Positions 598 to 21,090 of a stretch of DNA of 21,090 nucleotides are shown one piece after another. Below the pieces are notes generated by a model. It was given only the letters and a program-made list of their open reading frames with translations, ran no database searches and was not told the origin of the DNA. The stretch comes from a virus, in IMG/VR virus record IMGVR_UViG_3300030419_004803, positions 5,028-26,117 of that record; one strand, given 5' to 3'. The position numbers and the translations under genes are program-made. Every line of letters begins with the position of its first letter. The first letter of the stretch is position 1.

Positions 598-612
598 CAC
601 AAAATCTCCTAC

Positions 613-1551: not shown

Positions 1552-1575
1552 GGAATTTAGCAGTCTGGTTTTTAG

Positions 1576-1583
1576 TATTTAGA
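1576..1583 (-). promoter_or_regulatory. Possible weak late promoter (TCTAAATA)
   Basis: On the minus strand TCTAAATA lies 25 nt upstream of the DUF192 start, in the 33-bp gap after the fibre-like gene, and differs from the T4 late core TATAAATA at one base. The same CTAAATA core occurs before gp15. In an AT-rich genome one such match can be chance. Confidence 0.35.
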
Positions 1584-1584
1584 C

Positions 1585-3912
1585 TTACAAGTTAGTAATA
1601 GTGAGGTTATTAAGACCACCAACCCCAACCCAAGCAGTTCCGTTATAAATTTCTAATTGTGCAGTAGTAGTATTAAATATAAGAGCACCTACTGTAACAC
1701 TAGCAGCATCTCTTACTGTAGAAGTCATTACTGGAGGATAGAACATTGTAGAAGCAGTGACTACACCAGCAAATACCGCATTACCTCCTGATGATACTGT
1801 TAAACCAGCACCAGATACTTCGAGATCAGTGGTCGTTAAAGTGGAAGAAGTAACTACACCAGCAAATACACCACCACCATCAACATTTAAAGTAACCCCA
1901 ACACCGGGACCTCCATCATAATCATAACCAACATTAACTCCACTTCGAGCAGTAACAATACCAAGGGAGTCTAGATTTACTACATTCTCCTTGAAGATAG
2001 TTCCTGCAACCGAAATGTCTCCATCAAAATAAGCAACAACACTAGTGGTTACTCCACTTTCTTGAGATTCTCCAACATATAAGGAATACTGTGCTCGTGC
2101 AGTTGTAGCAATACCAACATTCTTTGTAGTACTAACACCAGCAGTTGATGATGCCCATGTTCCACCAGCACCAGATGAGCCACCCGCTGCAGGAGCCCAC
2201 ATATTAATCGCACTATCCCATGCTAGAACCCATCCATCGGTAGAAATTCCTGTGCCAGCATAATCCACATCCTCCAAGTCGGACATGATTCTAGCACCAC
2301 CTCCACCAAAGGTTGCTAACTGTTGCTGAACTCTATTAATAAAGAGGCGATAATGTTCTGCTAATTTCTCATGTGTTACATAAGTTTGATCTAATGGAGT
2401 AAGAGGGTCAGAATTATCTACATTAGGTGGAATATTTAAAAGACCTTCTGTTAATTGTTGTTTCTCATCATTAAACTTTTCTAGAACTTCTTCTAACTTA
2501 TTAATCTTGTTAGAAAGATCTTCACTCTTTTGTTCTAAATCTTCCGTTACTCTTATTTGCTTTAAAAGATCTTCAAATTCTCCTTTTAGACTTTGTACAT
2601 GTTTTTCATTTACAGCAAAGTCTATTTTCATCTCTTTGAGTTGACCAGAGAGATTCTTCTCAAAATTAACAACAGCAGGAACCACTGCATTTTTCATCTC
2701 ATCATAATATTTGGAAGTACTAGTATCTAAATTCTCTTGCAACTCACAAATATTATCTGAAAGAGATGTCTCCATCTCATTCATCCTATTAGAGAAACCT
2801 GTCAGAGTTTCTTCATAACCTTCTAACTTCTTATTCTCTGCAATCTCTCTTTCCTTAAAATCTTTATAGAGATTATCATAGGTCAATCCTAACCTCTTGG
2901 AATCTTCAATTAGACTCTCAATATCAGAAGTTTTTTCTAATAGATGCTTATCTAATTCTATTTCCTTATTAGTAATCCTTTCTTCTATATCGTGAATAGA
3001 ATTCTTAATAAAAGAGACTTGCTCATCAACATGAGAAGAAATAACTTTTACTTCCTCTTCAGTTTTCAATTTAGATTCTATTAAACTCTTTTTATAATTT
3101 TCTGCAACTCTCTCAAATTCCTTTTCGATTTGGTCAAGATTCTCCTTATAATCATCTTCTAAATTTTTAACCCTCTCATCGACAAATTCTTTATTTTGAG
3201 CAAGTCGCTGTTCTGTTTTTAATTCAGTATCTGCAAAAAACTTTTTATACTTGGGTAATACCTTTTCTAATAAAGATTCAACTTTACCCCTAATACCCTT
3301 TACTTCTTCTTTTACTGAAGAAATCTGTTCTTCATTAAGAGACTCAATTTGGGAAGTAACAGAATTAAGATTGGCATAGATATCCTCATGAACCTCCTCA
3401 ACTTGAGAAGTTAACTTATCTTTAAAACTGCCAAATCTATTATCAACTCTGGTTTCGGAATCAACAATTAATTTCTTATATGCAGGTACTTCTTCTCCTA
3501 TAAAATCATTTACCGTTTCGGTTAATGAAGCAAATTCTTCTTTTATATTATAGACACTTTTAGAATTTAAAGTCTTAACTTTATCCTGCACATTTTTTAT
3601 TGACTCCTCTACAAAAAGAAGTTGTGCGGTCATTGCATCGTTAAGATCTTCCTTACTAATCAGATCTTGAATTCCTTTTTTTATACCATCTACACTTTCG
3701 GTAAGAGTATTTACTTTCTCTACATTATTTTTAAAATTATCAAAATTACTAGTAAATTCTGTGAGTGCTTGAATATGGTCAAAATTTGTCCTAAAAGAAT
3801 TAAAGGCTTCGGAAATTGTCTCTACCTTTTCAGGTGTAGCTTGATCCCTAACCTCATCCAAAGAAGTATTAGGATTCTTAACGTAAAATTCTGACGGTTT
3901 CTTAAGTGGCAC
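1585..3912 (-). CDS. Long coiled-coil, fibre-like virion protein between gp16 and gp17
   Basis: 775 residues with a GTG start at 3912-3910; GGAG lies about 10 nt upstream and no in-frame ATG is nearby. Residues about 30-505 are Glu/Lys/Leu-rich heptad-like sequence, predicted as a long parallel coiled coil. Three spaced copies of a 'YKK' element with following acidic and Thr/Arg residues occur near residues 140, 218 and 274 ('VPAYKKLIVDSE', 'LPKYKKFFADTE', 'AENYKKSLIESK'). After a Pro-rich break comes 'HYRLFINRVQQQLATFGGGG' (about 518-537), a motif I associate with marine T4-like virion proteins, then a Gly/Ser/Thr/Val beta-rich C-terminus with 'GVVTSST' and 'GVVTAST' repeats and a 'FNTTTAQLEIYNGTAWVGV' ending like phage fibre tips. 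It is probably a trimeric fibre or whisker, not an enzyme. T4 has no gene between 16 and 17. Virion role likely; attachment site unknown. Confidence 0.75.
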   Translation of the reverse strand: MPLKKPSEFYVKNPNTSLDEVRDQATPEKVETISEAFNSFRTNFDHIQALTEFTSNFDNFKNNVEKVNTLTESVDGIKKGIQDLISKEDLNDAMTAQLLFVEESIKNVQDKVKTLNSKSVYNIKEEFASLTETVNDFIGEEVPAYKKLIVDSETRVDNRFGSFKDKLTSQVEEVHEDIYANLNSVTSQIESLNEEQISSVKEEVKGIRGKVESLLEKVLPKYKKFFADTELKTEQRLAQNKEFVDERVKNLEDDYKENLDQIEKEFERVAENYKKSLIESKLKTEEEVKVISSHVDEQVSFIKNSIHDIEERITNKEIELDKHLLEKTSDIESLIEDSKRLGLTYDNLYKDFKEREIAENKKLEGYEETLTGFSNRMNEMETSLSDNICELQENLDTSTSKYYDEMKNAVVPAVVNFEKNLSGQLKEMKIDFAVNEKHVQSLKGEFEDLLKQIRVTEDLEQKSEDLSNKINKLEEVLEKFNDEKQQLTEGLLNIPPNVDNSDPLTPLDQTYVTHEKLAEHYRLFINRVQQQLATFGGGGARIMSDLEDVDYAGTGISTDGWVLAWDSAINMWAPAAGGSSGAGGTWASSTAGVSTTKNVGIATTARAQYSLYVGESQESGVTTSVVAYFDGDISVAGTIFKENVVNLDSLGIVTARSGVNVGYDYDGGPGVGVTLNVDGGGVFAGVVTSSTLTTTDLEVSGAGLTVSSGGNAVFAGVVTASTMFYPPVMTSTVRDAASVTVGALIFNTTTAQLEIYNGTAWVGVGGLNNLTITNL

Positions 3913-3937
3913 CCTATTGATACTCCATCTACAAATA

Positions 3938-3945
3938 TATTTATT
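3938..3945 (-). promoter_or_regulatory. Probable T4-type late promoter upstream of the fibre-like gene
   Basis: The minus strand reads AATAAATA in the 41-bp gap between gp16 and the fibre-like gene, 25 nt upstream of its GTG start. It matches the NATAAATA form of the late promoter core known in T4-like cyanophages, recognised in T4 by the gp55 sigma factor with the gp45 clamp. This is the longest gap between complete genes here, which supports a regulatory role. Confidence 0.55.
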
Positions 3946-3953
3946 TCACAAAA

Positions 3954-4382
3954 TCAGTCAGGTTTTGAATTCTGCTGTTTAATTAATTTTGCCAGGTCTG
4001 CAGTAGAACCAACAAATAACGCATTAGTTACATTATTAGGACCTTTTGCTTTCTCTTCTTCATTAACTTCCTTCACCTTTTTCTGCAAATCTAATAATTT
4101 ATCAGTAGCATCTGAAACACTTTTAATAAGTTGTCCCGCTACTTCATATGCTCTAGGCATTTCACTTTCTTGAGCAATCTCAAGAATACCATTAATTGCT
4201 TCTTGTCCCTTTTCTATTATACTATAAAGATTACCTCGTGTATACTCATAATCCTTTTCAATATCATCTTTAGTAAGTCTATCAGGTTTTTCTCTCTCCA
4301 CCATGGGAGTCACCTCCTCTTCCACTACTTCTGGAGTAATGTTAAAGGTTTTGTCTAATTTATTAAATTCTTTAGTCATCAT
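3954..4382 (-). CDS. 16: Terminase small subunit gp16
   Basis: 142 residues, slightly shorter than T4 gp16 (164). T4-type small terminases form rings that recognise or regulate DNA entry for the gp17 motor. The sequence is highly charged and mainly helical: an acidic N-terminus ('EVVEEEVTP'), a central helical pair around 'YEYTRGNLYSIIEKGQEAI' and 'AYEVAGQLIKSVSDATDKLL', then a Lys/Glu-rich helix and a 'NNVTNALFVGSTADLAKLIK' C-terminus characteristic of marine T4-like gp16. The start ATG at 4382 overlaps the gp15 stop as ATGA, suggesting translational coupling; a second ATG follows directly. Identification rests on sequence resemblance and position after gp15. Unlike T4, two genes separate it from gp17. 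Confidence 0.88.
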   Translation of the reverse strand: MMTKEFNKLDKTFNITPEVVEEEVTPMVEREKPDRLTKDDIEKDYEYTRGNLYSIIEKGQEAINGILEIAQESEMPRAYEVAGQLIKSVSDATDKLLDLQKKVKEVNEEEKAKGPNNVTNALFVGSTADLAKLIKQQNSKPD

Positions 4383-5413
4383 GAAATTGTTCCATCAAAT
4401 CCGAAGTCATCTCCTTCAGGGATATAGGTTCTTTCTACTGCCTGATCGATAATCTTGACCGGTGATCCCTTAACATGAATAGCAGCAGTGGTATTATCTT
4501 TACCTCTCTCAATCACCATAGTATTACCTTCAATTGATACCACTAGTACTTCTTCCCCTTCAAGATCTAGATACGCTTGTCTACCTGCATCATTCTGACT
4601 ATTCCAGTAAGTAACAATAGCAGACCCATCATCAACAGTCATTGTATCATCAGTAGCAGTTATGTTTTCTGCCATGAGAGTTGTGATATCCCCTTCATAT
4701 GCCTTAATAGCACGAGGAACAACAGAGTAAGTAAGGTCTCTTCTTGTATTAGCAGTATCCTTACCAGTGAGGTAGTTAACCTTAACAGACCTAATGATAT
4801 CGTCGGTAGCAGCAGAAACAGGACCGAATAGATATGTCTTTGCACTGAATCTTAAAGTATAAAGAAGAACTCTTCTTGTCTCAAAGTCTCCTTCATAATC
4901 ATCTTGCATTGTTACATTTTCAAGTACAATGGGAATATCTCTTTTCTCATTAATACTTCCCACCAGATTAACGGTTACGTTATATGAGGGTTGAAAATAG
5001 GGTAAAATCTGTTCTACAATCTGTAAAGCATCATCATTCAATTTCGCCATAATAGCAAGTTCAAATTGCATATTATAAGGAACAGGCATATATGCTTTAC
5101 TAGAATTTTTTTCAGTAACAGGATCCTTTACAACAAACTTTTGAGTCGTTGTTAATTTTCTACTAGGATCATATGTCAACCCAGTAAACTCAAAAGACAT
5201 TCTGGGTAGAGTTATAGAAGTTGCCTTATTAAGGTCTGGTAACTGATTTAAACGTGCTAAAAACTTTTGAGTAGGACCATATGCCAAAGGAACCTTAATA
5301 GCATCCTCAACTGCTCCAGCAGAACTAGTTTGCTTTACAGTTATTCCATTAAAAAGCGTACCAAAAGAAATAATGGTCTTTCTCAATATTTCGTTATAAA
5401 AATACTCAAACAT
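4379..5413 (-). CDS. 15: Tail completion / sheath stabiliser gp15
   Basis: 344 residues, longer than T4 gp15 (272). gp15 caps the tail tube and sheath and joins the tail to the neck. The core (about 1-245) is of the expected type: 'MFEYFYNEILRKTIISFGTLF' opening, then 'MPVPYNMQFELAIMAK', 'ILPYFQPSYNVTVNL', 'ENVTMQDDYEGDFETRRV' and 'LYTLRFSAKTYLFGPV', all conserved-looking in marine T4-like phages. An extra module occupies about 245-325, with 'TDDTMTVDD', 'GEEVLVVSIEGNTMVIERG' and 'HVKGSPVKIID', before a short C-terminal tail 'YIPEGDDFGFDG'. A similar module appears in the DUF4815 protein. The start ATG is preceded by AGGTG about 7 nt upstream. The gene overlaps gp16 by four bases and lies 24 bp downstream of gp14. 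Confidence 0.92.
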   Translation of the reverse strand: MFEYFYNEILRKTIISFGTLFNGITVKQTSSAGAVEDAIKVPLAYGPTQKFLARLNQLPDLNKATSITLPRMSFEFTGLTYDPSRKLTTTQKFVVKDPVTEKNSSKAYMPVPYNMQFELAIMAKLNDDALQIVEQILPYFQPSYNVTVNLVGSINEKRDIPIVLENVTMQDDYEGDFETRRVLLYTLRFSAKTYLFGPVSAATDDIIRSVKVNYLTGKDTANTRRDLTYSVVPRAIKAYEGDITTLMAENITATDDTMTVDDGSAIVTYWNSQNDAGRQAYLDLEGEEVLVVSIEGNTMVIERGKDNTTAAIHVKGSPVKIIDQAVERTYIPEGDDFGFDGTIS

Positions 5414-5434
5414 TTTTAGACACCTGTTATCTTA

Positions 5435-5442
5435 TATTTAGG
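5435..5442 (-). promoter_or_regulatory. Possible weak late promoter (CCTAAATA) before gp15
   Basis: The minus strand reads CCTAAATA across the gp14 stop codon, 22 nt upstream of the gp15 start. It shares CTAAATA with the site before the DUF192 gene but has two mismatches to TATAAATA. Evidence is position plus partial match only. Confidence 0.25.
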
Positions 5443-6901
5443 GAACACCAAAGGGGTTCTGTTCTGTAAAGTCTAAAATTTCATCCGCTGCTTCTTCAAT
5501 ATTGAAGTTATCTGCATACTCTTCATCATCACCAATTTGTGTATCAACCACTCTAATGACTTGAGTAGCACCGGACTTACTTCCTGTTAATGTCTCTCCT
5601 ATCTTAAATCCTTCACCGCCAACCGTAGCAACTTCAAGAACATTAGTAACAGAATTCCATGTTCTGACTCTTGCGGTAGTAGTTGTAGCAGATCCAGTTA
5701 CAATCTCATTAAAGACAAAGTTACCACTCGATCCGAAGGAAGGATCAGCAACTGTTATAGTAGGTGCAACACTATATCCAGCACCAGCGTTAGTTATTCT
5801 AATAGCAGTTATAGTGCCTGCAGTACTTACAACAGCCGTAGCAGCAGCACCAGCAGTAGTAACACCCGCCTCAAATATTTCATTAGTAAATGTAATTTGA
5901 GGAGAAGTAGTAAATCCACCACCACCAATTAATCCACCATAAGTGGTCATCGTTATAATACCAATACCACCATCAGAGATAGAGGAAATACCAGTAGCAC
6001 CGGCACCCGTATTGCTGACAAATCTAATTATAGGTGCTTCAGTATATCCAGCACCAGCATTATTCAGATCAGCATTCTGAACAGATTTAGCACCTGAATT
6101 GACATTCAAATTACAAACTTGAAGTCCACCGATCATTCGTACACTAGCAATACCTGTTATGCCGGTTGAAGGTGCAGAAGAGATGGCAACTCTAGGAACA
6201 TCAGTATATCCACCACCCCTATCACCAATAGTAATATATTGAATACCACCGTCTACAAGACCCGTTACAGCAGTTACACTGACTCCTGTACCAACCATAG
6301 TAAGGGTTTGCGTTGGTCCCGCAATAGTTGAAATTCCATCTTCTGTTTGACCATCACTTTCATCTCCCACCAGAAGATCATCAATATCCTCAACACCTGT
6401 ATCAATAACTTCGTCTTCGTAACGGAAGAGTTCACATCTCAACTCATAGATATAAGTCTTTCTTAATTGATAAAATGGTTTTTCATGTTCTACATATTTA
6501 ATTTCAAATAGACGATCACCTAATGGAAAATAAATTAAATCTCCTGCTTTAGGACGAGTAATTAATTTTACATTGGGTTCATTCTCCATTAAAGGTTCAA
6601 TATAAGTCTCCCATCTATCTTTAGAAATTGTTAGAGTTATTTCATTCTTCTGTTCAATACCAAATTTGGATAAAATAACTGGATTATCTCCATATCCATC
6701 ATAAGTATCCAAATATGCCTCTAATGGATATGCATCATCAAATTTTGATTGAACAACTTCTCTTATAATACTTTTTTCAGTGAGATATTTACGAGGTAAA
6801 TAATGCACCTCAACCCCGTACATCCTCAACTGTTCGTTGATAAGACTTTGAACTAAACTCTGTTCTTGTCTATTACCATTTTGAAAAAACGGGTTAAGCA
6901 T
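5438..6901 (-). CDS. 14: Neck protein gp14 with inserted repeat region
   Basis: 487 residues against 256 in T4. gp14 forms the neck with gp13, sealing the packaged head for tail joining. The N-terminal core (about 1-165) looks like marine T4-like gp14: 'MLNPFFQNGNRQEQSLVQSL', 'YGVEVHYLPRKYLTE', 'KLITRPKAGDLIYFPL', 'YVEHEKPFYQLRKTYIYEL'. From about 187 to 455 is a Gly/Thr/Ala/Ile-rich region with four degenerate repeats ending in an aromatic-Pro motif: 'GGGYTDVP', 'GAGYTEAP', 'GGGFTTSP', 'GAGYSVAP'. A separate 'IGETLTGSKSGATQVIRV' module follows, then an acidic tail ending 'TEQNPFGVP', which seems to be the original C-terminus. The repeats are therefore inserted within the protein and probably decorate the neck surface (inference). 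gp13 begins upstream with only 4 bp between them. Confidence 0.9.
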   Translation of the reverse strand: MLNPFFQNGNRQEQSLVQSLINEQLRMYGVEVHYLPRKYLTEKSIIREVVQSKFDDAYPLEAYLDTYDGYGDNPVILSKFGIEQKNEITLTISKDRWETYIEPLMENEPNVKLITRPKAGDLIYFPLGDRLFEIKYVEHEKPFYQLRKTYIYELRCELFRYEDEVIDTGVEDIDDLLVGDESDGQTEDGISTIAGPTQTLTMVGTGVSVTAVTGLVDGGIQYITIGDRGGGYTDVPRVAISSAPSTGITGIASVRMIGGLQVCNLNVNSGAKSVQNADLNNAGAGYTEAPIIRFVSNTGAGATGISSISDGGIGIITMTTYGGLIGGGGFTTSPQITFTNEIFEAGVTTAGAAATAVVSTAGTITAIRITNAGAGYSVAPTITVADPSFGSSGNFVFNEIVTGSATTTTARVRTWNSVTNVLEVATVGGEGFKIGETLTGSKSGATQVIRVVDTQIGDDEEYADNFNIEEAADEILDFTEQNPFGVP

Positions 6902-8653: not shown

Positions 8654-11600
8654 TTAAGCAAGAGCAATAACTCGAAGATCCTTGATACGAGGAACATAAA
8701 CCTGACTTGTAGAAGTTAGGATTAATTTAATCCTATATGTTCTAAAGGAAGGTAAATTATCGACGGTAAAGACATAATCCTTAAATTCAACATCATCTCC
8801 AAATCCATAACTATTGGTTTGTGGAACAAATGTATCAGATAATCCATCACTATCCTCATCAAGGATAATCTGACCCCTAGTATTGAGATTATTATAACCA
8901 GGGAATGCAGTAAAGATAGGATCCACTCCTTCCCTATTATTGATACAGTAGAATGCTCTAATATTAGAATCGAGATTAATATGAGCACCAGCTAATATCT
9001 TAATAGATGTAGCGGAATTCTCTAGAATCATCTCTTTGGTAATATATTGACATGCTGTAGGATCCGATTCAATAGTATTAACTCTACTATCGGTAGCATA
9101 ATTGGTAATAACACTATTAACTCTGTTAGAAGTTAATATAATATTAGATGCTTCACCATCCACAATAGGACTTACTCTAGTATCATTACTACTTAAGAAT
9201 AATCTCATGTTAAGAGATTTATGTCCTTCAACATTAGTCAAGTACTGATCTTCATTAACCTTTGATCCAATCACTCTAGGTGAATCTAGATAATTAGATT
9301 CATTTAGAGCAACGTTTTCAAAATCATGCTCAATCCAAGGAATTTCGGTAGAAGGTCCGCTTAAACCTTGAGAAGTAGTAGTTTGTACTTCAGCAGTTAA
9401 TCCAGTTCTAGGAACAGTTACATTCCTAACCATTGGAGTAATAATTTCAAATGGTATATTTTGAGTTGCATTAACATTATATCCACCGGTAGATTTATTA
9501 CCATTAATGAATAATTGAGGATATCCATCAGAAGCAGTGCTTCGTGCAGTACCAGTAGCACCAGAAGTATCTACCTTAATGTTATAAGAATCAAAAGTAA
9601 TAGGATCGGAAAGACTAACATCAGTTAGACTATGAGTTCCATTAATTCTTCTCAAACTAATTCCCCCTGTTTCATACTTATAAACAGGAGTTCCAACTGG
9701 ATAAGATCTAGAAAGAGTATTATCAATACCTCTGGTACTAATGCCAATGGTATTTCCACTTACATTATCATAAGAAAGAATTTCATCCCCAATTAAAACA
9801 TATCCATAATTAGTCGAACCAACAGCAACATTTTCAAACTCTGTAAAGGTGCTAGCAACAGCAACTGTTATTCCACCAGCATCTCCAACATTATACGCAA
9901 CACTTAATTGAGTTGGTCTAATGTCTGATTCTACACCAGAAATTTTAACTTTATTCTTACTGAAATACATTCCATGATTTCTATGATTTACCTTGATATG
10001 TAAACCATCACGTCCTGTATCAGTATTAACAGAAGCAACTTGAATATCTCCACCAGTACCTGCTGGTAATCCTGAATTTAAAGTAGTAGAAACACCTAAA
10101 CTATTATAATACATCATAGTCTTGGCACTTCCTACAGTAAACTCACCTTGGACATTCTCCAGAATGAGTTCATTTGTATTACCAATTCCAGTAACAGATA
10201 ATCTCATATTACGTCCCAAAGAATTGAGACCCACGGTAGTGACACCTAAAACATCACCAACTTGATAACCTGTACCTAGACCACTGATAGTTGCACCAAC
10301 TGCCACACCATCGGTAACGGTAATATTAGCAGTTGCACCTCTACCATTTCCTGTAATAGTCTCAAGAGTAACTCCATCAAATGTAAGTCCGCCCGCTAAA
10401 GGAGTATATCCAATACCTGCATTAATAATATTCAAATCACCAAGTGCAGTTCCAGCAACTCCAGTAAGAGTACCAGATGCATTAGTAGTTGCTTGATAGA
10501 AAGTATTTCCTATTTCATAACCAGAATCTGCTACTGTTGATCCTAATCCAACTCTTACTTTTTTAGAAGCAAGTACGAGAGGGTTAGGTTGTAATCGAGG
10601 AATCTGACCATTTCCTACAGTTAATTCTGGATTATAGAATTCTACTGTACCCTCACTAATAAAGTCTGCTCTATAAAGAGTGAATTTCAAATCATCCCAT
10701 TGACTAGGTTCCCATGTAGAAGCATTTTGAGACTTAAAGAGAGATCCTAAAAGTGGTTGGTTAGCAACATAGGTATTATTAATTAAATCAGTTTCACCTA
10801 CTCTTGAAATATAAACACTGTATTTCGCAGAGTTTGATAATAGAACCATTGCATATTCTATATTTGGTTCTAGATAAACAGGTGCTCTAAATTGGAATGT
10901 AGTAGCAACTGAACCATCGGTAGATATGGATACGTCATTAGGATCCAAAATCACTTCTGTCATCGGAACAATTACTTGAGTAGGAACTCCATTTTGCATT
11001 GTTCTAATGGAGAAGTTGACAGGAATATCCATGTCATCTTTGGTCCTAAAGAAGATATCACATTTAGTTAAGAAAACACCGGCAGGATTCTCGTCCTGAT
11101 TAACTCTAAATGATTGTGCAAGTGGATCTCCTACATCTCTTCTCTGAATTATTTCTGCCCATCGAGTAGCCCACTGACTAGACAAATTACGTGCAACCGT
11201 ATCCTCTTGTGCAACTTGGGTTATATTAACAGTTGCATTACGAGTAGAAACAATAGTCTCTTCAATATTTTCCCAAGTTCCTGATGCAACATAACTATTA
11301 CTTGCTGAAGTAGTAGCACCTAACTCATTATCTACATCACTGGTAAGTTTAAGAACCTTCGTTCCTGTTTCAAAACGAGGGAAATTAACATTATTTGGAT
11401 TAGGCACATAGTAACTTCCTAATAAAGTACCATGGACATCAGTAAGCAGTCTTACGTTCGTAATAGTTGCTTGGGCACCACTCGATTCTCCCGTTAGAAC
11501 CATATTGGTTGCAACCCATCCATGGAAACTTCCTTGGGGTTGAGAAGCAAGAGAGAAGGTATCTATATTCAGAAGTGTAGATGTTGAAGAATAAGTTGCG

Positions 11601-14600
11601 GGAATAGGTTGTCCAGCACCATAAGGGTTCTCTGAATAAGTTTGAGTAGGAGCATCATAAGGACCACGCTTATGGTTTGCTGTAGCAACCCTAAAGATAA
11701 TATTTGCGTTGGTAGTATTATTAACCGGTCCCAAACCAGTACCTTGAATTACACCTGTTACAGTTTCACCTACTTCAAAGGTTCCTGTAGTCATATTAAT
11801 TTCTAATAATTTAGGAACACAATAAGAGGTAACATCTATCCCATCAAAGAAACCATATACACGAGTATTGGGTTTCATTGATTGAGCATCAAATTCAATA
11901 TTTCGGGATCTAACGAATGGAATCAGACCTCTATCAATTACTCTAGAATCAATTACTTCATTATCAAAGGTTTCGCTAACAAGTATTTGAGTACCAGTTC
12001 TCCTTCTTCTACTTCTCTCAACAGTAGTCTCCAGCTGCTCTTCAGCTCGCCAGTCTGTCCTCCACCTACCCTGTCTATCAGCCCATTCTCTTCGACGAGT
12101 ATCACCTCTGACTACCTCTCTACCAGTCCACAAAGTCTGCCAAGAATTCCAGATATTTTGTGCAAATCCGGCTTGAGGATTAAATCCAGTAGTAGCTGCT
12201 AAATTAGCAACTGTTTCATTAAAATTACCTTCTCTATTAATAATACGTGGTTCTAAACGAACAGTATCTACCCAGGTATCAGTTGCTGGAGTTAGTTCTA
12301 ATGTTCCATCCCAATATGCAACAATAAAGGGAGTAACTGCTTCCCATCTAGTTCCAAATTGTTGTACAAACCATTCAACTTCCGCATAATCCAGAGTTAT
12401 AATATCATTTTGTCGTCTTATATTAATACCTTCTACAGCAGTAAAGTCTAAATCCGCCGTAGCATCAGTATTAACTACAGGACCGAACATTAAATCAACA
12501 GAATTGGTATAATGACTTGGCCTGACTTGCTTATTTCTAGGATCAATACTATTTTTAACTTCAAAACTAGTATCCTGTGGTTGGAAAGTTGTAAAGTTAT
12601 CAACAAAGAATCCAGACTTAAATCTGTTTAATCCATCTGCATCAGACACAAAGAATGAAGAAGTATTAGATTCTAACAGTGAAAGTGAAGTATAATATTC
12701 AAGATTTTGAATTCTATCTTCAAGTCTTGAAATATCACTCATTTGATATCTCTTATACTCCAGAAACTCAATCGAAGCATGACTTACATCATAAAGATAA
12801 GGTGGAAGATTAACTGTTGCTATTTCAAGAGCATCCTCAACTTTAACAGGTTTTTGAGGATTTTCGGAAGGAGTTCCATATACTACTTGTAATGTACCAT
12901 CTTTAGTAATATAAACTCTATCAATTCTTCCCAGATAGTTGGAGAAATCAACCGTAATGGATTCATCAGATGCAAGCATATTTAATGCTGAATTACCGCT
13001 TCCATTAAAAGTTCTGCCATAGAATTCTAAAGGAGATCTAGAATTTTCAGAGAGAGAATAATCAGTAACCCTAGGACGAATATCAATTATGTCACTATTA
13101 GATAATCCATCAACACTTGGAATATCTTGATAATTAAAGGTACTATATGAATTTACAGTAGTAATATCTCCTTCATCCGTAGATTCATAATAAGCATTTT
13201 CAAAATATATTTTTAATGCTTTATCAGGAGCATCAGCATCCGCTTTTCTAACAAGTCTTCCAAAATCATAGAATGTATTCTCTTGACCATTATTCCATTT
13301 GTAACTTGCGGTTATATCAAAACTAGGAGATTCTAAAGTTGATACTACCGCTTGAGCATTAGACTCTCCAAAAATAATAGTTTCACCTTCGACCAAATTA
13401 TGTTCATTTTCGTAGATAAACGATATTTTAGAAGAGTTTAATCTTTCTGCACAAATACCAATTGCACCACTAGTTTGACCTGTGAATTTCTCTCCAATAA
13501 TCAATTCCGTTGTAGTACTAGAAGAAGTAGTGATTGATGCTAGATCCGCTGTAGGAGCAGATGCACCATCCAATCCTGCTGATTCAAATACACCATGTAC
13601 TTTAACAATGTCAGGTGTATTAAGAGAAAGTTGTTCGTCTTGAACTCTGGTTCCATATGGATATCCACCCGTACCATAATCCAATCCATCATTCAGAGTA
13701 GTAGATCCAATTCCAGATGCACTTAATTTGGACTTGGTAATAGTTAAAGTATTAACTCTATTTCTTATTTTCTTCTTCTCTACTACTTTTGACTTCTTAA
13801 GTGTAGCTATTAAAGTAGTCTGATTAATAGAATCATCAGATCCTAAATTAATTATTGATAAAGTGGTCATTGTAGCATTAAAGACCAATCTATCAGAAGT
13901 TAAAGTTTCTGTGCTTCCATCAGATCTAATAACCGCATATCTTTCCTCATCAAAGGGAAGGAATGTTTCATTCCTTCCTGCTTCATAAGATCCAGTCAAA
14001 TCTCCACCAGAAATATTAAGTCCACTAAAAGTCTTTCTGATTGAAATAGATGCATCCGTTAAATCAACATCAGAAATATGAGATTTAGGTAATTCTGTAT
14101 AAAGACTATTATCTGAAGAAGATTGTAAATCTGTAGTGATGATCTTAAGATCACTTACATTAATTTGACTTGTTGGTAAAAGTCCACTTACAACCTGGGA
14201 TACTGTTGTAACTCCAGTAACTGTAACTTGAGTAGAAGAAGTACCAACTACCTTTCCGTAAATTGGATCAGGACTTACCAAAGATCCGTCAGTAAAGGAA
14301 ACCAAATCATCTAACCGAAGAGTTCCTGGGAATACATCTAGATTGGGACTTGTAATTGTACTAATATAATTTGTCCCTGATCCTGCCGTGATGGTAGCAA
14401 CTCCAACAGTAATTAAATCTGATTGAATTACGTCTGCACTAAAAGTATTAATTCCAGTAACACCGTCATTAGTACCATAAACAGATTTTACATCTGAAAT
14501 ATCATGAGAAGTAATAGCGATTGCTACTCTTGGATTTTGAACTCCATTAATGATAAGAGATTCATTCTTAAGGAAATTACCTTCAACTTCATAGCAAGTT

Positions 14601-16135
14601 AAAGCAGTTCCAGCAGACACAGAGTGCATAAGGAATGCGGTTGCACCACTATTAGCACCTTTAATGAAAGTAGGATGTGCAAGTGTTATTGCTTGATTAA
14701 GAGTAAGATCAGTAGTTGTCTGAACATCATACAGGGATATGTCCCACTGATTAAGTTGAGGATAAGTCGCATCATATGATCCCGACTCTAATTCCATATC
14801 ATAAACTCTGGCAACCCCAATTTCTTTTGCAGGTACGCCAGTCTGATCAGAACCGACTCTTTCACTTCTTAAAGTTAAAATATATGTGTTACCAATACCT
14901 ATAGTGGGTGTTCCATATACATTATTTAATTTTAAGGATGGACCAGTATTATAAATTATAGATTGATTTTCATTCAATAAAGTAGTTCTGGGTTTATCGG
15001 CATCTAAAAAAGTAGAAGCAACAGTTTCTATTTCATATCCTTTGACAAATGCTTTTCCAGGTCCCACTCTATACAAAGATAGATCATCGGAAGGAGTTGC
15101 ACCTGCTTGAGTAGTCTGACCTTCTTGATAAACTCCTCCGTTACCAACATTATTATTTAAAGAGTTGACAACAGCAACATCAAATGCTTTTACATAATAA
15201 TCTCCAGATTCTTCATAAGTTCTACGTGCTAACTCATCTGCTATGATACTATAATCTGTGGTTTCCTTTTTACTTTTTAAGATACCCTCTTCAACAGTAG
15301 CAAGCTCAACAAAACTATCATCTTCAAAATCACTTATATTCTTTTTAAATAGACTTAAAGTAATTTTTAGTCTATCTGCTCCTGGCGCAGAATAGTTATT
15401 ATATCCTTGAGAATTATCTGCTAATGACTCATCTAAATCAGAATTGATTATTTCTTCTAATATATTAAATCCAACCCTATAAGAAGGAGTGTTGGTATAT
15501 TGATCAAGAATTAAAGTCTCTGAACTTACGTTGGCAAATTCCCCTCTTATAAAATATACACCTTCTTCAATATGAAAAGCAGATCCTGTAGCAGTTGCTC
15601 CAGAAGCAATCGTAGAAGCAAAAGGACTACCTATAGCAATTGTAGTATTTCCAAGTAATCCAGAGGTGATATCAACATTACAAGTTAAATTTTCTGCATC
15701 AGAAAATGTTGGAGTAGAATTATTTGCAGTACTCGACGACAAATATTGAATATAAAGAGTAAGATTCCCATTTTCAGAATCTTCCGCTTCAAGAATCTTA
15801 TTAACTACTGCTGTTACTCCAGAAGTTTGTCCGGTAATCTTATTCCCAATTAACTGGTCCGCATATGCAGTAACTGGTACTCCTTGAAAAGTATTAGATA
15901 ACTGAACACAAGTATAATCCTTACTATAACTAGTATTACCAGGAATTACTTTCGTTCCATCCTTAAAAAAATGTTGACCAAACTTTTCAATTTGGTTTTG
16001 TAATATTGACTGCAGATTACTTAGTTCTCTTGCTTGGACAGGATATCCAGGTTTAAACAGCACTCTATAATAATCCTTCGCAGGATCAAAGTCATCAAAA
16101 TAAGGAGAGACGTTTAGATTCGTTTGCTGCGGCAT
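8654..16135 (-). CDS. Giant DUF4815-type baseplate/tail structural protein
   Basis: 2493 residues. The N-terminus, 'NVSPYFDDFDPAKDYYRVLF' and 'PVQARELSNLQSILQNQIEK', is the signature of DUF4815 phage proteins, found in marine T4-like baseplates. Repeated modules of the type 'TGQTSG' occur near residues 95 and 880, with 'TGESSG' near 1548. A conserved-looking middle includes 'RIQNLEYYTSLSLLE', then 'WFVQQFGTRWEAVTPFIVAY' and 'TWVDTVRLEPR'. Residues about 1325-1382 form an Arg/Trp-rich patch ('RREWADRQGRWRTDW', 'RSRRRRTG'). 'DPLAQSFRV' near 1668 starts a conserved domain with 'VFLTKCDIFFRTKDD'. Further on come two GxGY repeats and a 'GDEILSYDNVSGNTIGISTR' module. The gene occupies the position of T4 genes 9-12 and wac, so it may supply baseplate-periphery or fibre-anchoring functions (inference). 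The start lies 5 bp after gp8 with a weak Shine-Dalgarno. Confidence 0.88.
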   Translation of the reverse strand: MPQQTNLNVSPYFDDFDPAKDYYRVLFKPGYPVQARELSNLQSILQNQIEKFGQHFFKDGTKVIPGNTSYSKDYTCVQLSNTFQGVPVTAYADQLIGNKITGQTSGVTAVVNKILEAEDSENGNLTLYIQYLSSSTANNSTPTFSDAENLTCNVDITSGLLGNTTIAIGSPFASTIASGATATGSAFHIEEGVYFIRGEFANVSSETLILDQYTNTPSYRVGFNILEEIINSDLDESLADNSQGYNNYSAPGADRLKITLSLFKKNISDFEDDSFVELATVEEGILKSKKETTDYSIIADELARRTYEESGDYYVKAFDVAVVNSLNNNVGNGGVYQEGQTTQAGATPSDDLSLYRVGPGKAFVKGYEIETVASTFLDADKPRTTLLNENQSIIYNTGPSLKLNNVYGTPTIGIGNTYILTLRSERVGSDQTGVPAKEIGVARVYDMELESGSYDATYPQLNQWDISLYDVQTTTDLTLNQAITLAHPTFIKGANSGATAFLMHSVSAGTALTCYEVEGNFLKNESLIINGVQNPRVAIAITSHDISDVKSVYGTNDGVTGINTFSADVIQSDLITVGVATITAGSGTNYISTITSPNLDVFPGTLRLDDLVSFTDGSLVSPDPIYGKVVGTSSTQVTVTGVTTVSQVVSGLLPTSQINVSDLKIITTDLQSSSDNSLYTELPKSHISDVDLTDASISIRKTFSGLNISGGDLTGSYEAGRNETFLPFDEERYAVIRSDGSTETLTSDRLVFNATMTTLSIINLGSDDSINQTTLIATLKKSKVVEKKKIRNRVNTLTITKSKLSASGIGSTTLNDGLDYGTGGYPYGTRVQDEQLSLNTPDIVKVHGVFESAGLDGASAPTADLASITTSSSTTTELIIGEKFTGQTSGAIGICAERLNSSKISFIYENEHNLVEGETIIFGESNAQAVVSTLESPSFDITASYKWNNGQENTFYDFGRLVRKADADAPDKALKIYFENAYYESTDEGDITTVNSYSTFNYQDIPSVDGLSNSDIIDIRPRVTDYSLSENSRSPLEFYGRTFNGSGNSALNMLASDESITVDFSNYLGRIDRVYITKDGTLQVVYGTPSENPQKPVKVEDALEIATVNLPPYLYDVSHASIEFLEYKRYQMSDISRLEDRIQNLEYYTSLSLLESNTSSFFVSDADGLNRFKSGFFVDNFTTFQPQDTSFEVKNSIDPRNKQVRPSHYTNSVDLMFGPVVNTDATADLDFTAVEGINIRRQNDIITLDYAEVEWFVQQFGTRWEAVTPFIVAYWDGTLELTPATDTWVDTVRLEPRIINREGNFNETVANLAATTGFNPQAGFAQNIWNSWQTLWTGREVVRGDTRRREWADRQGRWRTDWRAEEQLETTVERSRRRRTGTQILVSETFDNEVIDSRVIDRGLIPFVRSRNIEFDAQSMKPNTRVYGFFDGIDVTSYCVPKLLEINMTTGTFEVGETVTGVIQGTGLGPVNNTTNANIIFRVATANHKRGPYDAPTQTYSENPYGAGQPIPATYSSTSTLLNIDTFSLASQPQGSFHGWVATNMVLTGESSGAQATITNVRLLTDVHGTLLGSYYVPNPNNVNFPRFETGTKVLKLTSDVDNELGATTSASNSYVASGTWENIEETIVSTRNATVNITQVAQEDTVARNLSSQWATRWAEIIQRRDVGDPLAQSFRVNQDENPAGVFLTKCDIFFRTKDDMDIPVNFSIRTMQNGVPTQVIVPMTEVILDPNDVSISTDGSVATTFQFRAPVYLEPNIEYAMVLLSNSAKYSVYISRVGETDLINNTYVANQPLLGSLFKSQNASTWEPSQWDDLKFTLYRADFISEGTVEFYNPELTVGNGQIPRLQPNPLVLASKKVRVGLGSTVADSGYEIGNTFYQATTNASGTLTGVAGTALGDLNIINAGIGYTPLAGGLTFDGVTLETITGNGRGATANITVTDGVAVGATISGLGTGYQVGDVLGVTTVGLNSLGRNMRLSVTGIGNTNELILENVQGEFTVGSAKTMMYYNSLGVSTTLNSGLPAGTGGDIQVASVNTDTGRDGLHIKVNHRNHGMYFSKNKVKISGVESDIRPTQLSVAYNVGDAGGITVAVASTFTEFENVAVGSTNYGYVLIGDEILSYDNVSGNTIGISTRGIDNTLSRSYPVGTPVYKYETGGISLRRINGTHSLTDVSLSDPITFDSYNIKVDTSGATGTARSTASDGYPQLFINGNKSTGGYNVNATQNIPFEIITPMVRNVTVPRTGLTAEVQTTTSQGLSGPSTEIPWIEHDFENVALNESNYLDSPRVIGSKVNEDQYLTNVEGHKSLNMRLFLSSNDTRVSPIVDGEASNIILTSNRVNSVITNYATDSRVNTIESDPTACQYITKEMILENSATSIKILAGAHINLDSNIRAFYCINNREGVDPIFTAFPGYNNLNTRGQIILDEDSDGLSDTFVPQTNSYGFGDDVEFKDYVFTVDNLPSFRTYRIKLILTSTSQVYVPRIKDLRVIALA

Positions 16136-16140
16136 GATTT

Positions 16141-17709
16141 TTAGAATTGCAAGATAACTTTAATATCTTCTTTTTGGTTAGAGGACCTAGTAATGGATGG
16201 TCTATTGTCCACATAAATCACTTTACCCGAATATTTTTTAACTTCAGGATTCGCAATTCCACTATTAAATTCTTGACCAAGATAGTAGGTTCTATTATTT
16301 ATTACGGTACTTATAGCTACCGCACCAGAACCAAAACTGGTATCAATTGCTAAATTAGAACCGGATGATGGAACAATTGTTAAACTTCCACCCGATGAAG
16401 GAGTTGCAGTAAATGCTTGTAAACTAAATCCATAAGTAGGTTCAGTAACACCAACACCAGCAGTGTTAAATCCAGCAAGAGATTTATCCTGCCAGTATTT
16501 TAAAACTCCCGTAGTTTGATCATACTTCACCACTCTTCCTACTGCAGTAGATCCAGTAGCAATGGTTTGGGTAACATAAGAATCAGCAGTAAAAGTAGCA
16601 CTGCTATATCCTGTTCCAGTCAATCTCAATGCATAAGTGGCAGCAGCTTTATCAGCACCTAAAAGAGAAGTACTATCAAAAGCTTGAGGATTACATACAA
16701 CCCCTACTCTTGCAATTTGATTATCGGTTACAAAATCAGGATTTTCATTATCGTTCTCAATTCTAGAATATAGAAGAACATTATATGCACCCAATTCTGT
16801 ATAAATGTTAGATCCATGTCCTCCTGGAGGAGAAATAATGACATCAAACAACGGACGAGTGGTTCCGGTAGGTACATTACCTCCATCTAAATCCACACTA
16901 CCATAGGTGTACCCAGAACCTTGATTAGTAACAGTTACAGATTCTACTTCATTAGAAGCATTTACAACTATTGTGCATAGTGCTCCACTACCGTTCCCTT
17001 GAATAGGAACATTAGTATAAGACTTACCACCTGTAGGTCCAATAGCAACACCACGATTAGTAATGGTTACAATTTTAATAGAACCATCTACAGCATTATC
17101 TCTAACAGGAGCATTATCTGTACTAGTTTCCCAATCAGCAGGGACTGGAATATAATCAGTAGATTCAAATTTTACAATATCACTAGGTTTAATAGTATAA
17201 AGATATTTCCAAATATAACCATCACCACTACTACCAGCACTGCGTGGTTCTAAATCTGTAAAAGTTGGCTCATCTAATGAAGGTCTACCATTGGGGTTAT
17301 CAGGATCTGTACCGTTCTGCAAACATTCATATACTCTATAGTCACTATTCAGAACATAATATGTGGCAGAATATAAATTGGTAGCACCAGAAACTTTGGC
17401 CGTATTAGTACGACTATAATCACTACGATACATATCATAGGTTGTACCAGAAGACCAAGATCTTTTAGCAACAACTTGGCGTACATCAGAAGAATTAATC
17501 TTCTTCATCGCAACCATAGTATCCCAATAGTCATCTTCCTGATCAAAATTATCCTTCGGAGAAGGGGGATCAGAATCCCAATCAGATTGATAATCAGTAG
17601 GGTTGCACAGACCAATAAAAGAATAATATGCATTTGCTGTGGAGGTGACTCCAGCAACAAAGTTTTTAGCATTTAATATTCTGAGTTGGTCAGTTATAAT
17701 TGCGGCCAT
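16141..17709 (-). CDS. 8: Baseplate wedge subunit gp8
   Basis: 522 residues; T4 gp8 has 334. gp8 is a dimeric part of each baseplate wedge, contacting gp6, gp7 and gp10 in T4. Diagnostic N-terminal motifs: 'MAAIITDQLRILNAKNFVAG', 'YYSFIGLCNPTDYQSDWD', 'DDYWDTMVAMKKI' and 'DVRQVVAKRSWSSGTTYDMY'. A conserved 'GDGYIWKYLYTIKPSDIVKF' follows near residue 170. Two repeat elements are added: a GxGY-type segment about 206-275 ('TNRGVAIGPTGGKSYTNVP', 'TNQGSGYTYGSVDL') and a 'TGSTAVGRVVKYDQTTG' module near 385-405, accounting for much of the extra length. The C-terminus 'KVIYVDNRPSITRSSNQKED' followed by 'IKVILQF' closes the core. The ATG at 17709 has no clear Shine-Dalgarno but lies downstream of two overlapping late-promoter matches. 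Confidence 0.9.
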   Translation of the reverse strand: MAAIITDQLRILNAKNFVAGVTSTANAYYSFIGLCNPTDYQSDWDSDPPSPKDNFDQEDDYWDTMVAMKKINSSDVRQVVAKRSWSSGTTYDMYRSDYSRTNTAKVSGATNLYSATYYVLNSDYRVYECLQNGTDPDNPNGRPSLDEPTFTDLEPRSAGSSGDGYIWKYLYTIKPSDIVKFESTDYIPVPADWETSTDNAPVRDNAVDGSIKIVTITNRGVAIGPTGGKSYTNVPIQGNGSGALCTIVVNASNEVESVTVTNQGSGYTYGSVDLDGGNVPTGTTRPLFDVIISPPGGHGSNIYTELGAYNVLLYSRIENDNENPDFVTDNQIARVGVVCNPQAFDSTSLLGADKAAATYALRLTGTGYSSATFTADSYVTQTIATGSTAVGRVVKYDQTTGVLKYWQDKSLAGFNTAGVGVTEPTYGFSLQAFTATPSSGGSLTIVPSSGSNLAIDTSFGSGAVAISTVINNRTYYLGQEFNSGIANPEVKKYSGKVIYVDNRPSITRSSNQKEDIKVILQF

Positions 17710-17741: not shown

Positions 17742-20700
17742 TTAAGTGGCATAATTTGCCGATTTCAGTTTATTGGTCCGTTGAACTATCATAGAAGTCG
17801 AAATACCAGTTCCATTAGTTCCTATTCCTGATTGTGTATAGGCAGTATAAGAATTTACTCCGCTTCTTGATGTAAGATCAATTCGTCCCCAACTGAAGGA
17901 TCCGAAGAAATTAGAAGTATCAATACCAACAGTGCTGTAAGTGAAACTACCATCAATTTTAACAAATACTCTATTAATGTAAGTAGTTCCTATACCAACA
18001 CCGCTATTATCTAGACCAGTAGCAGTAGAGACTATTTCAGAAGTTTGAACTTCATAAACATTATCTATAAAGTTCGTTCCTACCCCTATATTATTATCTC
18101 CAGAATCTAAAGAAGTAATAGATGTAGTCGCTATTCCTACGTTAGAGAATTCAACAACAAAATAATCATTTGTGCTTATTCCACTGATAGTAACAGCAGT
18201 TCCTGTAAGAGAAGCATTCCTCAAGAAAGAATCATCAGGAATATGAAGATCCATAATCAACTGGGTTCCACCACTAATAGTAGTTGTTCCGAAACCAGTA
18301 ATATTTCCTTGATCCCCAGAGTAAATATTTACATTATTTGCTTCTTCTGTATAAACAGGAGGAGAAATAAGAACATTTGGTGGAGCATCAGTTGTATATC
18401 CCGCACCAGGATTAGTAATTGCTGCACCAGTTATTACACCATTAGCAATAGTTAAAGATCCAAACGCAGTAGTGGTTGTACCGATTCCCGTACCTCCTTG
18501 GTTAGTGCTTCCAATACTCATAGTTGCAGTAGAGTAACCCGAACCACCGGATGTAATATCGATAGAAGAAATAGTACCCAAACCAGAAACTATAGCGGTA
18601 GCAGCAGCACCAGTCATAGTTGCCTGATCCACGAAAATAACTTTATTCTGGAAACTTAAGGCATCAGGATCTTCGTTTTCATTATAAGAATCAAATATAG
18701 GTCTTAAAGTATCAACATAGATTGTAGTAGACCCAATACCAACTGACTTAATAATATAAGCAAATGGGTTAATACGTGGTTCATAAAGATCCCTAGACTT
18801 ACCTACTGGTAGATCATTAACAAACATGTCTTCAGTCTGTCTGCACCAATCAACAGGTCTTACTAGACTTTCATCCCCACTATTACCAGGACCATAATAA
18901 GGATTGGTTGTAACTAAATCAGTAGAATTAACTTGCTGAACTCCACGAGAATCTTCTTGAAGATTCTTTCCTTGACCAATAGAAGGACTGTGACCAATAG
19001 TTAAATCATCACCAATCTTAACAGTTTCAATGATATCCTTAAACACAACATCTTGATCACCACTTCCCTTATAGAAGATTAATTTAGAAGTATCATCTTT
19101 TTTAGGTGCTTCAGTAAATTCTATAACACTACCACCTTCAAACTTATATCCTTCACCAGGAACTTGGAGGATATCATTGATAAAGATAATAATAATATCT
19201 TGAACATTGATATTAGATCCTTTAGCAGATCTAATAGAAACTACGTCTCCACCATTTTCAGTAAGAGTAAAGGATTTAGTTTCTCCATCAAACTTATCAT
19301 CCAAATTATCAAGCATATGAAGGAATCCAAGAGACCATCCAGTAAATTCATCACTGAAGGTCTTATCAATATTAATCAGGAATTCCGTATAGTCCGAAGT
19401 AGTTGGAATACCAACTGTTCCACCAATTCCAACTGTTAGGGATTCTCCAACACCATATCCATATCCAGTTTCCCCGATACGGAAATCAATAACACTGGAT
19501 CCTTGTCCAACAACAATATCAATGGTAGCTTGAGTTCCAACACCAGCAGAACCAGAAGCATAGACTAAAGGAATATTAGAGTAAGAAAGTGGATCATCAA
19601 TTACAACTTCTAGATGAGGTATTACATTACCACCTCTGGCATAATGATGAGCACATGTAGAAGTTCCTGTATTAACTATGAACTTCTTATCATCCAGTAC
19701 TTCAAGAACTGTAACTTCCTTCGCTGCAGGATCTTGCTTACTTGCAGAATTATTACTTGTACGTGGAGCAACAATAGATCCCTGAACTGTTCCACCAGCA
19801 ACGAAGTAAGAATCAACAGTGGAAACTCCCACATTAACTTCAAATTCTGTAGTGCTGTTAACAGCAGTAACTTGTGTTCCTGCATAAGTTGGATCAGGTC
19901 TTCTAGGATACCTATGATAAGTAGAATTAGAATCCTTACTGCAAGAGAATGTTAATCCCTCTTCCTTCAATTTAATGTTTTCACCAGTAGTTAAAGTATG
20001 TGCGCCAATAGTCATGGTCAAAATACCAGTATTAGCACTATAATCTGCAGCAGTGACAGTATGATTAACAAGAGGTGATGCACCAACATCAAGAGTAATA
20101 GTAGTAGCAGTAGTATCACTAATATTAACTGCTGTACTAAATCCTGGATCCGTAGATCTTGGATAGTTATGCAAGGAAGAATAATTATCCATTGCACATC
20201 TAAAGGTTAAAGAATCATTTGCTAACCTAACACTGGTTGATGTAGTAAGGGAGTGAGATCCAATAGTAAGAGTAGAAACACCGGCATTTGCATCATAAGT
20301 TGCATCAGAAACATCAAAGTAAACTAGAGGTGAAGCACCGACATTAACCGTAATAGTAGTATCTGTCGTTGCTGTAATAGCAGTGTTTACTCCTATAACC
20401 GGATCTGTAGAACGCGGATAATTCTTCTCGGTAGCATCATTATCCATTGAACAAGTAAAGATTAATGCACTTGTTCCAATGCCTACAGTATTACTTGTAG
20501 TGTAAGTATGACCTGATCCTACTGTTAAGGTTAAATCACCTGTAGAAGCGGTGTAAGAGGCATCTGTAACAACCGTAGATCCTATTCCGGTAATAGTAAT
20601 AGTACCAACCCCTACACTAACAAATGTATGAGTATAATCACCACCCGAAATAACTGCACTTGATGCTGCACTTACAAACTGATGTGCATAATCTCCACCA

Positions 20701-21090
20701 CTAATTACCGCATCTGTTCCAGTACCAACAAAGGTATGAGTAAATTGATTATTAGGAGAAGCATATCCAACATCAACAGTGATAGTTGTAGCAGTAGTAC
20801 CCGCAATTGCAACCGAAGTATCGTAGGCAGGATCACCACCTCTTGGGTAGTAATGAGTACTAATTCCAGCATCTATAGAACAAGTAAATCCAAGTCCAGT
20901 AAAGATAACATCTCTTCCAACAGAGAATCCATTAGCAGCAGAAGTAGTAACGGTCATGATACCACTTGCTGTATTATATCCAACAGAACTAATATCTAAT
21001 GGTCCAGCATATGAACAAGTAAAGGCAATACCTGATAATTCTACTTCATCACCTTGAGAATAACCGTGTGCCTTATGAGTAGTAATAGTC
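17742..21090 (-). CDS. Large repeat-rich virion protein upstream of gp8 (5' end outside window)
   Basis: At least 1115 codons; the frame is open to the right edge, so the ATG at 20957 is internal and the true start lies outside. The N-terminal half is made of beta-rich repeats with the signature F-x-C-x-x-D ... YPR-x-x-DP (YPR near 20842, 20413, 20158, 19903) and a degenerate last copy 'HHYARGG' near 19640. The C-terminal half carries motifs I associate with marine T4-like baseplate proteins: 'LHMLDNLDDKFDGETKSFTL', 'IIIIFINDILQVPGEGY', 'IKIGDDL'-like 'VKIGDDLTIGHSP', 'RPVDWCRQTEDMFVNDLPVG' and 'YEPRINPFAYIIKSVGIGS', then GxGY elements ('GGSGYSTA', 'GAGYTTDAP'). Position directly upstream of gp8 matches T4 gene 7, so a baseplate wedge role is plausible, but I saw no direct gp7 similarity. 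Ends 32 bp before gp8. Confidence 0.82.
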   Translation of the reverse strand, partial: TITTHKAHGYSQGDEVELSGIAFTCSYAGPLDISSVGYNTASGIMTVTTSAANGFSVGRDVIFTGLGFTCSIDAGISTHYYPRGGDPAYDTSVAIAGTTATTITVDVGYASPNNQFTHTFVGTGTDAVISGGDYAHQFVSAASSAVISGGDYTHTFVSVGVGTITITGIGSTVVTDASYTASTGDLTLTVGSGHTYTTSNTVGIGTSALIFTCSMDNDATEKNYPRSTDPVIGVNTAITATTDTTITVNVGASPLVYFDVSDATYDANAGVSTLTIGSHSLTTSTSVRLANDSLTFRCAMDNYSSLHNYPRSTDPGFSTAVNISDTTATTITLDVGASPLVNHTVTAADYSANTGILTMTIGAHTLTTGENIKLKEEGLTFSCSKDSNSTYHRYPRRPDPTYAGTQVTAVNSTTEFEVNVGVSTVDSYFVAGGTVQGSIVAPRTSNNSASKQDPAAKEVTVLEVLDDKKFIVNTGTSTCAHHYARGGNVIPHLEVVIDDPLSYSNIPLVYASGSAGVGTQATIDIVVGQGSSVIDFRIGETGYGYGVGESLTVGIGGTVGIPTTSDYTEFLINIDKTFSDEFTGWSLGFLHMLDNLDDKFDGETKSFTLTENGGDVVSIRSAKGSNINVQDIIIIFINDILQVPGEGYKFEGGSVIEFTEAPKKDDTSKLIFYKGSGDQDVVFKDIIETVKIGDDLTIGHSPSIGQGKNLQEDSRGVQQVNSTDLVTTNPYYGPGNSGDESLVRPVDWCRQTEDMFVNDLPVGKSRDLYEPRINPFAYIIKSVGIGSTTIYVDTLRPIFDSYNENEDPDALSFQNKVIFVDQATMTGAAATAIVSGLGTISSIDITSGGSGYSTATMSIGSTNQGGTGIGTTTTAFGSLTIANGVITGAAITNPGAGYTTDAPPNVLISPPVYTEEANNVNIYSGDQGNITGFGTTTISGGTQLIMDLHIPDDSFLRNASLTGTAVTISGISTNDYFVVEFSNVGIATTSITSLDSGDNNIGVGTNFIDNVYEVQTSEIVSTATGLDNSGVGIGTTYINRVFVKIDGSFTYSTVGIDTSNFFGSFSWGRIDLTSRSGVNSYTAYTQSGIGTNGTGISTSMIVQRTNKLKSANYAT
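19620..20900 (-). repeat. Tandem YPR/DP protein repeats, 85-residue period
   Basis: Four good copies and one degenerate copy. Aligning on the Asp codon of 'DP', copies 2, 3 and 4 sit at 20403, 20148 and 19893, an exact 255-bp (85-residue) spacing; copy 1 (20832) is 429 bp away because 58 residues are inserted. Each unit has 'L(T/I)F.C', Asp, variable residues, then H/N-x-YPR-x-x-DP, followed by 'TTIT(V/L)(D/N)VGASP'-like strands. DNA copies have diverged, so it is an old protein repeat and not a recent duplication. Confidence 0.85.
20620..20745 (-). repeat. Nested 18-residue tandem repeat
   Basis: Between YPR copies 1 and 2 the protein reads 'THTFVGTGTDAVISGGDY', 'AHQFVSAASSAVISGGDY', 'THTFVS', about 2.3 copies of an 18-residue unit. 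The GGD Asp codons at 20691 and 20637 are 54 bp apart. High protein identity with differing synonymous bases. Confidence 0.85.

Follow-up and report, generated by a model that had tools for sequence, protein, structure and literature searches.

What are the repeated segments at the right-hand end of this stretch of viral DNA, what kind of protein carries them, and what does their conserved signature do? The window analyzed here (21,090 nucleotides, bases 5028-26117 of a 26,117-base virus record) encodes on its minus strand the signature F-x-C-x-x-D…H/K-x-Y-P-R-x-x-D-P in four full copies of about 85 residues and in one half copy. The first-pass annotation regarded the copies as an array whose period and key residues are held by selection, and suggested that the invariant polar residues might form a functional or structural site, possibly for a metal or another ligand. 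To our knowledge, the contact between the giant baseplate proteins of marine cyanophages and their hosts Prochlorococcus and Synechococcus is poorly understood. In the open literature, the signature strings were found in no paper, and titles and abstract openings contained no description of the repeat.

The copies are marked by occurrences of F-x-C followed 13 residues later by YPR, located at window positions 20888, 20459, 20204 and 19949, that is, at spacings of 429, 255 and 255 bp (143, 85 and 85 residues). Copy 1 (20766-20981, residues 37-108) has its signature, F68 to P87, at 20829-20888. A linker (20577-20738) with three occurrences of an 18-residue HTFV...GGDY element lies between copy 1 and copy 2 (20310-20564, residues 176-260, signature 20400-20459), followed by copy 3 (20055-20309, residues 261-345, signature 20145-20204) and copy 4 (19800-20054, residues 346-430, signature 19890-19949). 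The half copy (21015-21089), found by motif scan, has an FTC at 21023 and no YPR, and is incomplete in the window. All these elements are on the minus strand. Copies 1 and 4 are supported by motif and HMM, copies 2 and 3 also by AlphaFold2 (copy 3 in two models). The string GGxYxHTFV was found in 186 ORFs, all with the FTC signature, for which that set had been selected.

The repeat HMM was built from copies in other phages, with the window's own copies left out. It scores copies 1-4 at iE 7e-20, 6.6e-26, 1.5e-30 and 4.5e-28, compared with 1.9 for the best among 200 shuffled proteins, and the repeats noted in the first-pass annotation are real; the half copy in the window reaches only 0.76. 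Pairwise, copies 2-4 are identical at 27-40% of residues (residue-shuffle mean 8-10%, maximum 21%) and at 46-55% of bases, which agrees with the earlier observation that these copies are exactly 255 bp apart while their DNA has diverged. The stretch CAHHYARGG (19629-19655, minus strand), near the start of the interval originally assigned to the repeats, resembles HYYPRGG of copy 1 (DNA repeat D5), yet at iE 7.3 it is not a repeat copy. Elsewhere in the window, short DNA tandem repeats at 1315-1440 encode an Asn/Gly-rich stretch in the ORF at 613-1551 (minus strand).

The ORF that contains the copies (17742-21089, minus strand) is open at its 5' end. The right end of the window is also the end of the contig, so the 5' end of the gene is cut off, and the ATG at 20957 is, given this truncation, probably internal to the gene. 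Over residues 239-1110 its product matches phrog_2885, 'baseplate wedge subunit' (E 1.3e-169). The gp7 proteins of the Synechococcus phages Bellamy and S-SM2, named 'baseplate wedge initiator', share 54% identity with residues ~495-1113. The C-terminal region after the repeats (17742-19799, minus strand) is common to cyanophage gp7 proteins without repeats. Downstream are the gp8 baseplate wedge gene (16141-17709, minus strand; PF09215, E 1.4e-17; phrog_438) and a structural gene identified by family matches to DUF4815 and phrog_358 (8654-16135, minus strand). The same order follows gp7 in P-SSM2, S-SM2 and P-HM2, where its third gene is annotated as hypothetical or as VrlC. Judged by these matches and by gene order, the repeat gene belongs to a T4-like marine cyanophage and encodes a gp7-like protein of the baseplate wedge. 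PDB sequence searches gave no match for the repeat gene, its C-terminal profile or the N-terminus of its nearest relative. Among the neighbors, a G-x-GYT...P-x-V motif is common to a neck-like protein (5438-6901), gp8 and the gp7-like protein, all encoded on the minus strand, and phrog_460 (head closure) touches both gp7 and gp8.

The nearest relative, an 18,548-base contig (loci L014 and L108) with 87.8% identity over 862 residues, contains gp25 and gp6, together with no fewer than 4,329 codons of the repeat gene. Its copies occupy residues 3456-3887 in the same layout of a half copy plus four, and the half copy is whole there (residues 3456-3490, iE 2.1e-10). More copies had been expected beyond the window, an expectation not borne out in this relative: its 3,455 residues upstream of the copies are free of F-x-C...YPR, and the HMM gives there at best a stub with iE 0.1. 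That upstream part does contain a YHYH domain (E 1.3e-23), a domain described in a section of PMC7824862 as a predicted metal-dependent hydrolase. The N-terminus is more widespread than the repeats and matches 496 records, including phages of Stenotrophomonas, Sinorhizobium and Pelagibacter.

With gp25-gp6 before the gp7-like gene in the relative and gp8 after it in the window, the gene order is gp25-gp6-gp7-gp8, as for cyanophage gp7. There is a weak reciprocal PHROG match between a short N-terminal segment of the relative and residues 730-758 of T4 gp7, each hitting the family of the other (E 3e-4 and 1.3e-4). The two proteins differ in size (at least 4,329 residues in the relative versus 1,032 in T4), T4 gp7 is without such repeats, and its domains PF21428, PF21427 and PF21456 are absent from the parts scanned, namely window residues 490-1115 and residues ~1-1636 of the relative. 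PF23786, which touches the N-terminus of the relative below the cut-off and does not match T4 gp7, was dropped as support for kinship with T4 gp7. According to PMC7029224, these phages lack T4 Gp7 and have VrlC in its place, and we therefore use the wording 'gp7-like'.

The module is widespread in marine cyanophages and optional in their gp7. A tblastn search with a two-copy segment matched 327 of 50,697 phage records, which by name comprise 246 Synechococcus, 50 'Cyanophage', 22 Prochlorococcus and 9 'Marine' entries. The same segment had no match among plasmids, and in a collection of one genome per species it matched 14 loci, all on contigs of marine MAGs or single cells. Six of these (L099, L101, L102, L103, L105 and L107) have other clear cyanophage genes nearby; at the remaining eight, where the repeat-bearing ORF was seen alone or with weak matches, a phage origin is likely. 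A plasmid or bacterial module was rejected on these grounds. As a side observation, several marine bacterial and archaeal MAGs (L095-L107) hold cyanophage-like contigs that are probably misbinned. When whole records were searched with the repeat profile, 8 of 11 matched, and those of Bellamy, S-SM2 and T4 were without repeats. The copy count among relatives that had been proposed as a check gave 0 to 12 motif copies per protein across nine phages. In S-SZBM1, no copies were found in the seven CDSs examined, including a gp7 of 6,619 residues. This giant gp7 was detected by mass spectrometry, according to a section of PMC9146016; it is repeat-free and does not place the repeats in the virion.

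Purifying selection holds the copies. Measured against the nearest relative, copy 1 has a dN/dS of ~0.07, copies 2-4 have ~0.11, and the 436 alignable codons that follow them have ~0.15. A tree built from seven loci groups most equivalent copies together, which places the origin of the copies before the split of these phages; the last copies of L017 and L018 group apart from those of the other loci, and some supports are low. Tandem Repeats Finder reported no array at the repeat region, which together with this clustering led us to reject a DNA tandem array or recent expansion. Across 80 related loci, 85 residues is the modal spacing (109 pairs), followed by 86 (26 pairs), but the period is not fixed, and spacings from 59 to 233 residues are among the 25 commonest values.

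The claim that key residues are under selection is supported by dN/dS, and by their conservation in homologous repeats, counted over 1,649 unique repeats using a model in which the key columns had been masked. The Cys is conserved in 1640 of 1645 repeats (99.7%), D+5 in 1535 of 1646, D+18 in 1479 of 1649, and the Y, P and R of YPR in 1595 of 1648, 1607 of 1648 and 1539 of 1649, figures that lean upward because the loci were fetched by similarity to the repeats, partly via YPR/FTC patterns, and some overlap. At the 'His' position (+11), 1085 of 1648 repeats have His, 439 (27%) Lys and 41 Gln. F0, the core neighbor of the Cys, is conserved in 87%. A plain packing role explains poorly why the Cys should be stricter than this neighboring core residue.

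Proposed as a further check, structure prediction of a two-repeat construct was carried out with AlphaFold2. It yielded seven strands per copy for two copies (pLDDT 90.1, pTM 0.68) and likewise seven for one copy (pLDDT 80.4, pTM 0.67), and on this predicted fold each copy is probably a seven-strand barrel. Coevolution was analyzed on 1,616 repeats (Neff 743), with couplings of the Cys column set aside because the Cys hardly varies. The strand from -2 to +2 pairs with that from +10 to +13, matching the AlphaFold2 strands. The variable positions -1, +1, +10 and +12 couple with one another and make up one face of the hairpin, which leaves L-2, F0, C+2, T+9, H/K+11 and Y+13 to the opposite face, with D+5 at the hairpin turn. 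The model and the couplings agree in placing the conserved set on one local element, a single beta-hairpin. Its conserved side apparently points into the barrel. D+5 and H+11 each couple to T+9; His at +11 accompanies Thr or Ser at +9 in 95% of cases, and Lys occurs with Ala, Ser or Thr.

Known barrel families offer the closest comparison. In E1_FCCH (PF16190), a domain found in phage-like bacterial proteins, the HGxxxGDxV and TTxTFxV halves align with the repeat. Profile-profile comparison with E1_FCCH domains of bacterial genomes aligned 54 columns at Prob 89.6 and 50 columns at Prob 94.1; most of FTC...YPR-x-x-DP falls in a gap, on an inserted hairpin that has no counterpart in E1_FCCH. A third run, with a single repeat represented by a 300-repeat sample, gave Prob 68 over only 18 columns; the highest Prob among 40 column-shuffles was 0.63, and the reversed profile gave 1.07. 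The top structural rows are phage proteins, endosialidase beta-barrels (PF12195) among them. Among the chains ranked by Foldseek, VIA-align placed the single-copy model on endosialidase NF (3gvj 431-492, Z 5.3, rmsd 2.3 over 61 residues), phi92 (4hiz 263-324, Z 5.2, rmsd 2.1 over 60 residues) and phage FCWL1 (9jlf, Z 4.8; next row 3.6), and the two-copy model on 9jlf (Z 6.1) and 4hiz (5.8), then 4.2, all values below 8, where Z may reflect a common arrangement. Unlike in the endosialidases, no catalytic propeller was found beside the repeat, which forms a tandem array and has a signature of its own.

None of 12 records passes the curated cut-off of E1_FCCH (29.5 bits) or of PF12195 (35 bits). 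With E values up to 1 allowed, 8 of 103 two-copy segments match Pfam E1_FCCH and 6 match End_beta_barrel (PF12195), the latter with a best E of 2e-4. Foldseek gave no PDB match at E < 0.001 for the one- or two-copy model, a result that is no proof of a new fold. In BFVD it found 28 models within E 0.001, of which those with names are all Synechococcus phage proteins. The repeat thus leans toward the E1_FCCH and phage-endosialidase barrels, below firm thresholds; the models suggest a module that looks like such a barrel in the way it works, and we do not file it as a family member. PDB matches of two repeat profiles (adhesin, LptA, carbonic anhydrase, antibody, CTP synthase) were judged spurious, and Pfam matches such as DUF5522 and Cthe_2159 were judged noise. 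PHROGs 701, 5342, 1276 and 18802 (virion structural, tail fibre or unknown) are each matched by all 103 segments and so already contain the module. These clusters cover whole proteins, over 325 to 6,136 positions, and none describes the module itself.

The interpretation that we favor, with moderate confidence, is that, in a T4-like marine cyanophage, the repeats are tandem beta-barrel modules of about 85 residues encoded by the 3' part of the gene for a giant gp7-like baseplate-wedge protein. Each module would consist of a barrel of E1_FCCH/endosialidase type, with the HGxxxGDxV and TTxTFxV core, and an inserted beta-hairpin. The signature would correspond to the inner face of the hairpin (F, C, H/K, Y), its turn (D) and the following PRxxDP, and would chiefly build and cap the hairpin. 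The modules may then be exchangeable beads on the virion surface that lengthen or space the baseplate arm, and they may touch host glycans.

By analogy, each barrel could instead bind a cyanobacterial surface glycan, with tandem copies of such a polyvalent receptor-binding module raising avidity. The closest structural rows are endosialidase barrels, and parts of PMC12632334 report that the K1F endosialidase barrel binds glycan (sialic acid) and place S460 and S468, which lie within the aligned endoNF range, in the beta-barrel binding site. The optional presence of the module, its restriction to marine cyanophages and its occurrence in tail-fibre PHROGs are also in accord with receptor binding. 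A receptor site, however, would be expected to vary between hosts, and the strictly conserved residues lie on one side of the hairpin, apparently inward. A ligand role of the conserved set, with a glycan as the ligand, is possible; as a full account of the modules we consider polyvalent glycan binding rather unlikely.

The feature least well covered by a plain structural role is the strict Cys. One could regard the hairpin as a cyanophage invention in which the near-invariant Cys, together with the adjacent H/K, D and Y, has a genuine chemical function or a specific recognition role, a view that we consider unlikely. The suggestion that the polar set is a site is right in that its residues share one hairpin. 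A metal-binding or catalytic site in every repeat could account for near-invariant C, D, Y and R and a mostly conserved His clustered there, but is very unlikely: there is a single Cys per repeat, the replacement of His, by Lys in 27% of repeats, argues against a metal site, and the choice of His or Lys tracks whether +9 is Thr/Ser or Ala, a pattern more suggestive of a network of hydrogen bonds or salt bridges. Slimmer still is the chance that the Cys is a covalent latch, an inter-array disulfide or Cys-Lys bridge that hardens the arm. Of the 4980 Cys in 257 repeat-bearing ORFs, 2579 are at the signature position, which together with the strictness of this Cys speaks for a latch, but it is the only one in its repeat and apparently on the inner face, and the Lys is present in a minority of repeats. 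Although some related gp7 proteins lack the modules and spacing varies, neutral filler or a chance repeat, which the first-pass annotation had already doubted, has next to no probability and is refuted by the shuffle control and by dN/dS of about 0.1, with the positional orthology of copies also against it.

On the favored interpretation of tandem barrel modules, the repeat probably forms, or equips, the part of the viral surface that contacts the host. It is present in at least 327 phage records, and our searches revealed no Pfam family dedicated to it. The module is a compact, expressible target with clear predictions, namely a barrel, an inserted hairpin and an essential Cys. If the Cys does prove to act in chemistry or recognition, for example as a Cys-centred glycan site or a covalent latch along the baseplate arms, the giant gp7-like proteins of marine cyanophages would include a polyvalent adhesin or a lockable fibre.
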